A DNA stretch of 64,000 nucleotides, from assembly GCA_024636955.1 (NCBI GenBank), contig JAGXGB010000018.1, forward strand, positions 1 through 64,000. The letters run 5' to 3'. The position numbers and the translations under genes are program-made. The DNA is from Bacteroidales bacterium. Its GTDB lineage: Bacteria; Bacteroidota; Bacteroidia; Bacteroidales; Lentimicrobiaceae. Below, piece by piece: positions 4,337-54,993 of this stretch. Each line of letters begins with the position of its first letter. The first letter of the stretch is position 1. Under the pieces are notes generated by a model, which did not search any database, was not told where the DNA came from, and saw only the letters and a program-made list of their open reading frames with translations.

Positions 4337-5236
4337 ATGAAAAGAACTCTACTCCTTATTTTTACTTCTTGGTTACTTTTTATTGCTGCAATTAATTATG
4401 CTTCAGCTCAGCAGTATAAACCCACTGCAGTAAGCGGCGCCCATTGGATAGTGATAATGACATACGAGGTTTCCCCCAATCCTGTTGATGGCGGCATATG
4501 GGAGTATTACTGTAATGGAGATACCCTCATAAATGAAATTGAATATAAAATTATATACAGGCGTGATCTGGAAATAACACAGTCAGGACCTCCTTTTACC
4601 CCGATATCTGATTATGAATTGATGGGATTTATGCGTGATGACACTATAGCCCGTAAGGTTTACGGCATTGACTGGTTGACTACATATCCTGATGAGTGTC
4701 CTGAGGGTGAAGAGTATCTTATGTTTGATTTCTCCCTCTCCGTTGGTGATACTACTGACATATGTCTCTTTGCATTTGAGCAAGAGGAAATTATGGCCAT
4801 TTGGTATGGGGAAGCATTTTTCCAAATGGTAAATATTTTCATAACTCCTAGCAGTAGTCTTTATGAAGGAATAGGTTCGCAATATGGCTTATTTGAAGCA
4901 ATGATTAGTATTAGTGGTTATTCAACATATCTGTATTATTACTGTCCCGGAAGTCCCTGTGAATACCTTGTTTCCACTCAAAACATTGTAACACCTGAGT
5001 ACTTTAAACTATACCCCAATCCTTCCTCATCAACATTGACCATAGACTTTGATGCGGGAAACAAATGGCAGAAAGTAGTAGTCTATAACAGTATGGGCAT
5101 TGCGGTTGATGAACACGCCCTTTCACCCGGTGCAAGCAGCCATGTACTGCATACGAACAATTACTCACCCGGCATATATTTTTGTGGTTTAGTGAATCAG
5201 AATACCAGGACAACTCTTGCAAAATTTATTAGGTAA
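4337..5236 (+). CDS. T9SS-sorted secreted protein, unknown function
   Basis: 299 residues. The signal peptide MKRTLLLIFTSWLLFIAAIN...SAQ is followed by about 190 residues with many Y, W and acidic residues and no domain I recognise. The C-terminal about 75 residues are a type A sorting domain (FKLYPNPSSSTLTIDF, then SPGIYFCGLV, ending AKFIR). It starts 10 bases after the preceding T9SS gene stop, consistent with one transcript. Two cysteine pairs in the middle could form disulfides after export. The body resembles the generic secreted T9SS proteins whose only annotation is their sorting tail. Confidence 0.8.
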   Translation: MKRTLLLIFTSWLLFIAAINYASAQQYKPTAVSGAHWIVIMTYEVSPNPVDGGIWEYYCNGDTLINEIEYKIIYRRDLEITQSGPPFTPISDYELMGFMRDDTIARKVYGIDWLTTYPDECPEGEEYLMFDFSLSVGDTTDICLFAFEQEEIMAIWYGEAFFQMVNIFITPSSSLYEGIGSQYGLFEAMISISGYSTYLYYYCPGSPCEYLVSTQNIVTPEYFKLYPNPSSSTLTIDFDAGNKWQKVVVYNSMGIAVDEHALSPGASSHVLHTNNYSPGIYFCGLVNQNTRTTLAKFIR

Positions 5237-12348: not shown

Positions 12349-12450
12349 TTGAACAACCTTAAACAACATTGAACCCCTCGATAAAAACTCGGGGGAGTCC
12401 ACCGAAGTCTTTGAACAACATTGAACCACATTGAACAACATTGAACAACA
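12349..12450. repeat. TTGAACAACA decamer array interrupted by a CCCCTCGATA...CTCGGGG element
   Basis: Two 10-bp copies at 12349-12368 (ttgaacaacc, ttaaacaaca) and four at 12411-12450 (ttgaacaaca, ttgaaccaca, ttgaacaaca, ttgaacaaca). Between them, 12374-12394 holds a 21-base element identical to 39406-39426 inside prmC. Confidence 0.85.
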
Positions 12451-36587: not shown

Positions 36588-36628
36588 TTTTACTGTGGTC
36601 TAATGTAATCTGCAGGTAAAATTAGTAA

Positions 36629-36793
36629 TCAATAAGTAATAACCAAAATGTAACAATCAATAAGCAACAATCAATAATAATCAATAATAGGCAACAATCA
36701 ATAAGCAACAATCAATCTGCAACAACCAACAGGTAACAATCAAATAGGTAATAATCAATAGAAACAATCAAAACGTAACAATCAATATGTAAT
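36629..36793. repeat. 14-bp degenerate tandem array (aacaatcaataagc family)
   Basis: About eleven degenerate units of the type aacaatcaataagc, aacaatcaatctgc, aacaaccaacaggt fill the spacer between HIT and the second EamA gene. The array runs through the stop codon of that gene (36782-36784), so the last few residues (LITY) are read from repeat DNA. The 14-bp period is twice the 7-bp period of the other repeats in this window. Confidence 0.8.
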
Positions 36794-37749: not shown

Positions 37750-38724
37750 TTAGTTAGGTTGTTTGGTTAGTTTTAGGTAGAAGGGGAGGGTGAAGTTGGG
37801 TTTGTGGGACAAGTGGGACTTGTGGGACAGGGGAAATCCTGAAAACTGGGGGTTTTCGGTAGACCCTGTGGTTTCTGGTGACCTATTGGTTACTGGGTAC
37901 CCTATGCCGGAAAATTGCTTTAATTGCCCTGTACTTTCTAACCCGTAGTGTTCAATGCTGCTGAACTTGTTTGCCAGTAGCAGTGCTTCTACCTGTAGGT
38001 GCTCACTAAACAACCGGCCTACTGAGTAGTGGTCGCGCAAGTGAAGTGGTACCAATGCACTCAACTGACCCGCCAATGTTTCATCCTCCCCACAAATTAG
38101 TTCTGTAAAAGAGGTCATGTCAACCGTGTAGCCTGCAATTATACAGTGGTGGTCTTCAATAAGTATTGCCGTTTCTTCTACTGTTGAGAGATTCAGCACC
38201 TTGTGATTGCTGTTGTTGTTGTTACTGTTGTTGTTGCTATTATTGTTGGCAAACGGCAGCAGGTCGAAGCTCCAGCTTATGCCCGTTCCATCTCCCATAT
38301 TTGAAAGCATGTCAGAGAGGGTACTTTGCATCAATGTATTTATAGGTAGGGGCAATTTATTTGCAGTAGCCGGGTGTGTATGTAAACCGTCTTTATCCAG
38401 CCTGGCAAGGTAAATAGTTTCTGTCAGACTCTCGGCTTGTGCTTCATTGCATCCAGCATCAAGCAGCCATTGCTTCATTATGGTGGCTGACCGGGAGTTG
38501 TCATTCAGGTAGAAGTACAATACCACCATCAACTGATTGTTGGTTATCCCCGTAAGGACACCTGATCGGTCGTATTCCACCACCGGCTGAAACCATGCAC
38601 TTTCCCTGATGGCAGGCAGGTGTGAATGTGTGTACTGGTGGTGCTGTAAGGGCGAGTTGTCCTTATCTGATAGTAGATACCAGGTATTTGACTTTCCGGC
38701 TACAGCAGATATTACAAGCTCCAT
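37750..38724 (-). CDS. DUF3822 family protein with low-complexity insertions
   Basis: 324 residues. The body (N-terminal AVAGKSNTWYLLSD-type, later EETAILIEDHHCIIAGYTVDMTSF and LLLANKFSSIEHYGL) fits the Bacteroidota family DUF3822, which has an actin-like ATPase fold in structural predictions and is often found beside rsmD. Residues 160-173 are an Asn/Ser run (NNNSNNNSNNNNSN). Near the C terminus, HKSHLSHKPN is coded by a 9-bp gtgggacaa-type repeat. Function unknown. Divergent from prmC across an 82-bp spacer with mirrored promoter-like arms. Confidence 0.75.
   Translation of the reverse strand: MELVISAVAGKSNTWYLLSDKDNSPLQHHQYTHSHLPAIRESAWFQPVVEYDRSGVLTGITNNQLMVVLYFYLNDNSRSATIMKQWLLDAGCNEAQAESLTETIYLARLDKDGLHTHPATANKLPLPINTLMQSTLSDMLSNMGDGTGISWSFDLLPFANNNSNNNSNNNNSNHKVLNLSTVEETAILIEDHHCIIAGYTVDMTSFTELICGEDETLAGQLSALVPLHLRDHYSVGRLFSEHLQVEALLLANKFSSIEHYGLESTGQLKQFSGIGYPVTNRSPETTGSTENPQFSGFPLSHKSHLSHKPNFTLPFYLKLTKQPN
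38206..38247 (-). repeat. Asn-codon microsatellite in DUF3822 gene
   Basis: Trinucleotide-like run (gttgttgtt on the + strand) encoding the N/S tract of residues 160-173; length keeps the frame. Confidence 0.85.
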
Positions 38725-45211: not shown

Positions 45212-45560
45212 TTCCCTTAAAATACTTAATGTTCATCTCTTGCCCATCCAGTATTTACTTTAAGCACATAATTGTCAGTTTGTTCAATTTTCATCAATTC
45301 TTTTAAAATTACGAATGGCTCCTTCTTAAATGGCAGAGACTCTTCATAGATTCCAATCAATCACACCTGTCTCGAGTGCAATTAACGTATTCAATAATTT
45401 GAATGTTGAAGCTTGTAAAGTAGCATATTGACTATCTACTTTTAAAAGCTTTAACCAATCAATTAAACAGTTCTGGTATTCTTATTCGCATTTGACATGC
45501 AAATATATTCCATATCTAAACAATTATCCACTGGTTCAGATGTTTTGGGTTTAAAAAAAG

Positions 45561-45601
45561 GGCTCCACACCAGCAGCCTAAACCAGACTGCCGTGTGAAG
45601 T
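45561..45601. repeat. Hairpin element copy 1
   Basis: Similar to 47433-47474. Begins GGCT(C/T)CACAC and ends GTGTGAAGT here; the arms pair with one G-U. Both copies flank the frameshifted aspartyl protease. Confidence 0.65.
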
Positions 45602-45747
45602 ATATATAGAGTTGCAATTACACCCTGATTTCACATCGGGATGCAGCATTCTAACCAAGATGTCAAAGAACTATTGTTTATCACTCCCTACTCACAATCC
45701 ATGCCTTATGTCAGGAAATTTGACTTTGTCGCCTAATGACGGTCAAA

Positions 45748-45851
45748 TGTCAGTTTTTGGCAGAAAAGGCAACTGACACGAAAACTGACACGAAGGTGAC
45801 AATAGGCGATAATGGGCGACTATAGGCGACACACACTGACATATTGTCTAT
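45748..45851. repeat. Twin module A: 10-bp units GGYGAYWATA
   Basis: Starts TGTCAGTTTTTGGCAG, then AAAACTGACACGAA, then four 10-bp units at 45795-45834 (ggtgacaata, ggcgataatg, ggcgactata, ggcgacacac), then ends ATTGTCTAT (45843-45851). Confidence 0.85.
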
Positions 45852-45905
45852 CAACTTTTAGGCAACAGTGCCATTTTTTTTAAAATGATACCCACTGATA
45901 CCCTG

Positions 45906-46010
45906 TGTCATGGTTTTTGGCAGTTATTCGTCATGACACTAAAACTGACACAAGGTATCAAAAGGTACCAAAAGGTATCAAAAGGTATCATGTACTGCCA
46001 AATTGTCTAT
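45906..46010. repeat. Twin module B: 10-bp units GGTATCAAAA
   Basis: Same architecture and nearly same spacing as module A, but the four units (45954-45993) read ggtatcaaaa, ggtaccaaaa, ggtatcaaaa, ggtatcatgt. Ends ATTGTCTAT (46002-46010). Confidence 0.85.
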
Positions 46011-46227
46011 ATTATCACGGGTATGCATAATGTTGGTTTGCCCGATGAGGTCCTCCGCCTCTGTGTGATGTAAATAACACCTGATTCTTACCAGGTATGA
46101 ATTATTGGATTTGACCCATGTGGATCAAATTTTGGATTATAGCACAAAACATGAAAGAATAAGTGATGTATCTTTTGAAGGTTGAAAATATGCATTCAGT
46201 TGGCTTTTATTTTAATTTCATTACATT

Positions 46228-49815: not shown

Positions 49816-49898
49816 GCCCTGTCAGGGCTTGAAAATTATTATATCCAAATAACACGATGGGTTTCACCCATCGCTGACATATTACGCCCTTTCAGGGC
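49816..49898. repeat. REP-like element with three hairpins
   Basis: GCCCTGTCAGGGC (49816-49828), GATGGGT-TTC-ACCCATC (49856-49872) and GCCCT-TTC-AGGGC (49886-49898). A layout I recall from many Bacteroidota genomes, not verified here. Confidence 0.7.
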
Positions 49899-49909
49899 TA
49901 TTTCCCCTT

Positions 49910-54685: not shown

Positions 54686-54689
54686 GAGT

Positions 54690-54780
54690 GGTTAGTGGTT
54701 AGTGGTTAGTGGTTAGTGGTTAGTGGTTAGTGGTTAGTGGTTAGTGGTTAGTGGTTAGTGGTTAGTGGTTAGTGGTTAGT
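54690..54780. repeat. (GGTTAGT)13 perfect heptamer array
   Basis: Thirteen perfect tandem copies of GGTTAGT, exactly 91 bases. It starts only 5 bases after the terminator arm. Confidence 0.98.
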
Positions 54781-54993
54781 TTTTAGGGGTTAGTGGTGAT
54801 TAGTGAGTTGGGAGTAATGAGTAGTGAGTAGTGAGTAGTGAGCCCTACTTGTCCCACTAAACCCAGAACCCAGAACAAAGAACCCAGAACAAAGAACAAA
54901 GAACAATCAAACGCTCATCGCCATGCGCCCAGCTTTTAAAAAAACTGAAAACTGACAACTGAAAACTAAGTGCTGATTGCTGAGTGCTGACAG
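54781..54993. repeat. Mixed 7-bp repeat mosaic
   Basis: Further heptad tracts: gagtagt-type (about 54818-54842), acccaga/acaaaga-type (54856-54906), actgaaa/actgaca (54945-54968) and gctgatt/gctgagt (54971-54990). All have a 7-base period; the last family also occurs in frame in cysQ. Confidence 0.85.

Follow-up and report, generated by a model that had tools for sequence, protein, structure and literature searches.

BOX, RUP and SPRITE elements are repeats limited to particular lineages and are probably parasitic (PMC3049150). As described there, the BOX element of Streptococcus pneumoniae is short, modular and strongly folded, has a variable number of inner units, occurs in few related species and has been proposed to be parasitic. 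The hairpin family reported here is like BOX by this description, but BOX modules are constant in sequence, whereas the present family swaps its stem and keeps its tip. It also shares with MITEs (PMC3049150, PMC10969869) small size, a non-autonomous look, high base-pairing and a location between genes; unlike them, it is not AT-rich, and neither terminal inverted repeats nor a target duplication nor a parent transposon was established for it. REP and REPIN sequences are likewise dispersed palindromes, the REP unit being described as 20-40 bp with a GTAG or CGTC tag (PMC3733652, PMC3116915). The stem-loop of the present family is 85-87 nt and no such tag was seen by eye at the stem foot in the aligned rows, and a REP element was therefore rejected. 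Template switching is described as a cause of compensatory stem changes (PMC8794818), and the hairpins attributed to it resemble ours in their multi-base compensatory changes without wobble intermediates; those hairpins, however, belong to RNA genes and do not make up a dispersed family of repeats. In kind, the present family resembles BOX- and MITE-type repeats, and we placed it in no named family. What sets it apart is a stem exchanged on both sides around a constant tip. Among the papers listed in literature searches, none described this hairpin family in its title or the beginning of its abstract.

The DNA analysed (the window) is a stretch of 64,000 nucleotides from a Bacteroidales genome (assembly GCA_024636955.1, contig JAGXGB010000018.1; this genome is G000 below). 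Two modules, A and B, lie between a gene of the beta-lactamase family (PF00144, start 45168, minus strand) on the left and a gene with no Pfam match (start 46474, plus strand) on the right. The features of the locus are:

45553..45600, minus strand: terminator-like hairpin followed by seven T (by reading)
45613..45648, minus strand: hairpin tipped by a G-N-G-A word, directly following the boxA-like sequence (fold and inspection)
45656..45671, minus strand: boxA-like sequence GTTCTTTGACATCTTG, 15 of 16 letters matching the 16S-23S spacer of the congener G001
45726..45747, plus strand: left arm of module A, type t2 (TTGTCGCC...), which complements its own array unit (row C36A of alignment A2)
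45748..45791, plus strand: constant core of module A (TGTCAG TTTTTGGCAG ... ACTGACACGAAAACTGACAC)
45795..45834, plus strand: right arms of module A, four 10-bp units GGYGAYWATA, the fourth partial
45835..45851, plus strand: tail of module A, with ATTGTCTAT at its end
45853..45884, plus strand: prefix of module B (CAACTTTTAGGCAACAGTGCCA...), from the same-type alignment
45885..45905, plus strand: left arm of module B, type t1 (TGATACCCACTGATACCC)
45906..45951, plus strand: constant core of module B
45954..45993, plus strand: right arms of module B, four 10-bp units GGTATCAAAA, the fourth partial
45994..46010, plus strand: tail of module B (ACTGCCAAATTGTCTAT)

A preliminary description of this locus had reported twin non-coding modules of 104 and 105 bp with different 10-bp arrays in shared flanks. 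Both lengths were confirmed (A, 45748-45851; B, 45906-46010), as were the words common to A and B in identical order (TGTCA, TTTTTGGCAG, AAAACTGACAC and ATTGTCTAT) and the start of the array 47 (A) or 48 (B) bases into the module. The local alignment score of A against B was 46, compared with a maximum of 27 in 1000 dinucleotide shuffles. Each array does contain four units, though "exactly four" overstates the fourth, which is conserved only in part (GGCGACACAC; GGTATCATGT). The pairings proposed for module B (TTTGGCAGT, 9 bp) and module A (TGTCAGTTTT, 10 bp) are present. The feature overlooked at that time is a left arm that directly precedes each module on its 5' side and complements the module's own array: GTCGCC precedes the GGCGAC array in module A and TGATACCCACTGATACCC precedes the GGTATC array in module B, the two left arms starting 159 bp apart. 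Relative to shuffles, module A folded as RNA gave a z of -3.41 and module B folded as DNA a z of -4.63. The single ORF of at least 60 aa across the modules (62 aa, 45885-46073, overlapping module B) is a mechanical call, and nothing speaks for a gene. A CRISPR array was rejected since the 10-bp units abut without spacers, and sigma-54, Pho and DnaA boxes were considered for the module words by eye only and rejected.

With the left arm included, the unit is built around a constant core (TGTCA...TTTTTGGCAG...CTGACAC) that forms the tip, with one left arm before it and usually two or more right arms after it. The order is variable left arm, core, variable right arm, usually right-arm repeats downstream, and a short tail; the hairpin, measured from the left arm through the first right arm, is about 85-87 nt long. 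When self matches and short or low-scoring matches are set aside, other modules match the pair at C19 over about 115-165 bp, and beyond this span the flanks diverge. By reading, the left end carries TGCAA..TTT..TGC, often with TGCCA, and the right end TGCCA/TGACA and TGGCAG/TGACAG-like words; TGCCA (left) and TGGCA/TGACA (right) are candidate terminal words present in part of the copies only. Neighbouring tandem modules are separated by short spacings. The GC content of family matches is 0.37-0.53 (window, 0.403), and GC skew gave no signal.

BLAST of the window stretch against its own genome gave eight matches, self and reverse-strand matches included. We then used a covariance model built from 15 modules (12 of G000 and 3 of the congener G008), which detected 13 modules at eight places with unrelated flanks in G000: two at C36 (the window), three at C19, two at C23, one at C56, two at 52 kb and one at 57 kb of C71, one at C63 and one at C16. 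Absence of further copies, which the preliminary description had listed as part of a refuting outcome, did not occur: BLAST and the covariance model both found them. Three full modules were detected in G008 and one in the congener G003, which brings the total to 17 in three genomes when opposite-strand matches at identical places are left out. The copies outside the training set scored 43 bits (C16) and 34 bits (G003), with complementary arm words of 11 and 10 nt, respectively. G008 has two additional cut-off copies, at C18 and C155 (the latter by reading).

Of 19 genomes examined within the genus, 3 carry the family, G000 among them. Among 393 genomes of the order, the core pattern matched ten times in G000, three times in G008 and once each in G163 and G315; the last two have no arms and were rejected as chance, as were single pattern matches in G004, G005, G006, G012, G014 and G018. 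In all these stray matches the complementary left-right words were 6 nt or shorter, and the model gave at most 13.7 bits (E 0.54). The model, run with stricter filters over 395 genomes of the phylum at E ≤1e-4, detected nothing outside G000; weak copies elsewhere may be missed, because the same filters recovered 11 of the 13 G000 modules. Two core patterns had no match in viral contigs, and a distant blastn search of plasmids and phages had none. A 26-mer of the GGTATCAAAA array occurs in three stretches in unrelated organisms, which were rejected (best model score 16.4 bits, E 0.11). A core pattern with fixed 14-base spacing gave no matches and misses existing copies, because the spacing varies among modules. 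No member of the family was found beyond these three genomes in the order and phylum samples searched. As in BOX, the copies are dispersed and intergenic and, in these samples, restricted to close relatives.

Six arm sequences were observed: t1 (TGATACC..), t2 (TTGTCGCC..), t3 (TTGTCCG../GTCCACC), t4 (TTGGCACTCATTGGCACC) and t5 (GTCCGCTAAAGTCC), both in G008, and a sixth in G003. The preliminary description had inferred a conserved architecture with a swapped core. The architecture recurs in the full modules of three genomes; a stand-alone recognition core does not hold, since what is swapped forms one side of a stem and the opposite side varies with it. In 15 modules the mean best complementarity of the left arm was 14.8 with its own right side, 14.1 with right sides of the same type, 5.9 with those of other types and 5.4 for shuffled left arms, and the own-arm score exceeded the best other-type score in 15/15. 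The two lowest own-arm scores of the 15 are those of the window modules (A, 9; B, 10.5). Shuffled arms reach 11.0 at the 99.9th percentile, and both window modules have a higher best score with other modules of their own type, so that the case for arm matching is carried mainly by the family and less by the window. Clusters in G000 did not significantly avoid two modules of one arm type (P = 0.11).

We also counted pairs in an alignment of 20 pairs x 15 rows (A2), of which the arm-complementarity test is independent. A2 was hand-trimmed to bring the arms into register and the right end of its t4 row was shifted by 10 bases, so that its pair counts lean towards structure. Standard pairs made up 88% of cells (72.6% after shuffling), 49 cells were changed on both sides (18.8) and covariation was 0.426 (0.149), values reached by 0/500 shuffles in each case; sliding the alignment by 1-3 columns left 29-49% of cells paired. 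The other two of the five covariation measures are weak: pairs with both-side change (12 against 9.5) were reached by 16/500 shuffles and pair types by 71/500. RNAalifold on the untrimmed alignment gave no pairs and no consensus structure.

A filled and an empty site could be compared at one place of eight, C56, where ileS lies downstream of the module. In G008 an Exo_endo_phos gene (PF03372) and ileS are divergent and 200 bp apart (1301-1500 of L109) with no module. The G000 counterpart, with PF03372 again as left neighbour, is an interval of about 880 bp with the module (5678-6556 of L051, with the left gene taken as its longest ORF). Between the two genomes the region of the ileS promoter is conserved, and the flanks of the empty site have diverged. 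The extra stretch in G000 contains the module, a boxA unit and other simple repeats, so that what moved may have been the module or more, in one step or several. The C56 IleS protein itself (L051 6557-10033) is longer by about 38-39 residues, some of them in 7-residue repeats of a GNLKEEP-like kind; in 16 of 18 congeners the IleS match is interrupted at this site, and the remaining two have no such match.

On balance, we think that the modules are probably a lineage-specific, small, interspersed, non-coding hairpin repeat of one Bacteroidales genus, whose arms are kept matched at the DNA level and which would need no host function. We infer that such modules are mobile and would come into new intergenic places singly or as tandem pairs or triples. 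The hairpin itself would be the unit that is kept or made, so that the arms remain complementary. The matching would most likely come about by copying one arm from the other at the DNA level (template switching), which appears to be the simplest cause of a stem exchanged in both arms, and the right arm would duplicate in 10-bp steps. If arms are swapped as matched pairs under a constant tip, the family would document how long hairpins arise in bacterial DNA under natural conditions and how their arms stay matched; covariation, the usual sign of a functional RNA, could then also arise in a dispersed repeat without any trace of a strand-specific RNA. Several observations count against the repeat: the window's own modules have the lowest own-arm scores, the modules are not AT-rich, two covariation measures are weak and the untrimmed alignment has no consensus structure, neither a transposase partner nor terminal inverted repeats nor a target-site duplication was established, and the downstream gene follows the module direction at 7/8 places (C16 is the exception). 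In addition, the boxA-hairpin unit found beside 7/8 clusters is not explained by module mobility alone.

This unit is among the observations that speak for an unlikely alternative, in which the modules would form the 5' domain of a gene for a minus-strand non-coding RNA, composed of modules, simple-repeat filler, boxA, hairpin and terminator; several right arms would then compete for one left arm as a folding switch. In 7/8 G000 clusters the minus-strand word GTTCTTTGACATCTTG, exact or with 1-2 changes, is found on the 5' side of the modules relative to their direction. It is an rRNA-type boxA by sequence, because of its likeness to the boxA of G001 in the 16S-23S spacer (GTTCTTTGACATGTTG) and the 16S leader (GTTCTTTGAACTAATGG). 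Folds and inspection placed a hairpin with a G-N-G-A tip just after boxA at 13/15 sites: the window (45553-45671, minus strand), C19, C23, C56, C71 (2) and C16 in G000, and C18, C51, C68, C101, C142 and C155 in G008; the exceptions are g8C30 and the CRISPR-leader-like g8C45. Its stem sequence changes between copies, by inspection its loop seems to have five bases in G000 but four in G008, and a terminator-like hairpin comes next in part of the copies. Read from sequence and fold, boxA and hairpin in or beside intergenes make a nut-like arrangement. The RNA gene is also consistent with strong predicted folds on both strands of the 15 modules. The boxA word alone is not diagnostic, because the identical 16-mer is also present inside an apparent insertion-sequence gene in G001 (3) and G013 (1) (by reading). 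Among the eight exact boxA sites of G008, modules adjoin three, three are at a contig end, one has a CRISPR-leader look and one has no module seen. At L066 (G008:C45) the word is near an apparent CRISPR array, in leader position, with two repeat copies visible by eye.

A functional RNA made from one strand is expected to show an excess of G-U pairs on its strand. In the outer stem (225 cells) we counted 192 Watson-Crick pairs, 5 G-T, 6 A-C and 22 other mismatches; G-T and A-C being equally rare, these small numbers give no sign of a stranded RNA, and the wobble pairs have no strand bias. Rfam had no family at gathering score at 45480-46150, with one sub-threshold microRNA match (mir-3910, E 0.79), and the RNA suggested in the preliminary description thus finds no support from mismatch balance or Rfam. 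TAnnTTTG is the Bacteroidetes -7 motif. On the minus strand it is found just before boxA in one cluster (C71, 57 kb), which favours the RNA gene, but none of the seven scanned clusters carries it within 500 bp of the modules on their far side. Moreover, on the minus strand boxA follows the modules, and at C63 no boxA word with up to 3 mismatches was found across 5.2 kb.

Less likely again is that the modules form arrays of protein-binding sites, phased by 10 bp along one face of the DNA, in which the arm types would serve different proteins. The 10-bp period on both sides of the hairpin and the orientation of the next gene are consistent with such sites; the bias in gene direction may reflect a promoter-related role of the modules, and a plus-strand TAnnTTTG lies 62-445 nt past the modules in 5/7 scanned clusters (a raw count). 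However, the distance from module to motif varies widely, and whole words change jointly in both arms, which one fixed protein would not permit. There is also no common theme among the neighbouring genes examined. At C63 (L056) two DUF6266 proteins (PF19781) are encoded at 4482-5138 and 242-889, one beginning about 90 bp from the module.

Bolder than the repeat is an RNA role of the modules together with the neighbouring boxA. We regard it as improbable that interchangeable hairpin modules (read on the minus strand, a single 3' arm for which several 5' arms compete) before the rRNA-type boxA and GNRA-like hairpin form a compound element, a nut-like site of processive antitermination with an exchangeable folding switch ahead of a terminator. 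One old local duplication without further meaning would account for the words shared by A and B and for the offset of their left arms, but is already refuted: G000 has 11 more modules at seven other places, and two congeners carry copies as well. It has next to no probability left.

Elsewhere in the window, short tandem repeats of 7, 9-10 and 14 bp (AGTGGTT, AGTAGTG, GTGGGAC and TTGAACAACA) were found at 54687-54990, 12411-12450, 36627-36792 and 37804-37829, and similar simple repeats adjoin several modules. An Acido-Lenti-1 RNA was matched at 49855-49899 on the plus strand with 38.3 bits (gathering score 37).
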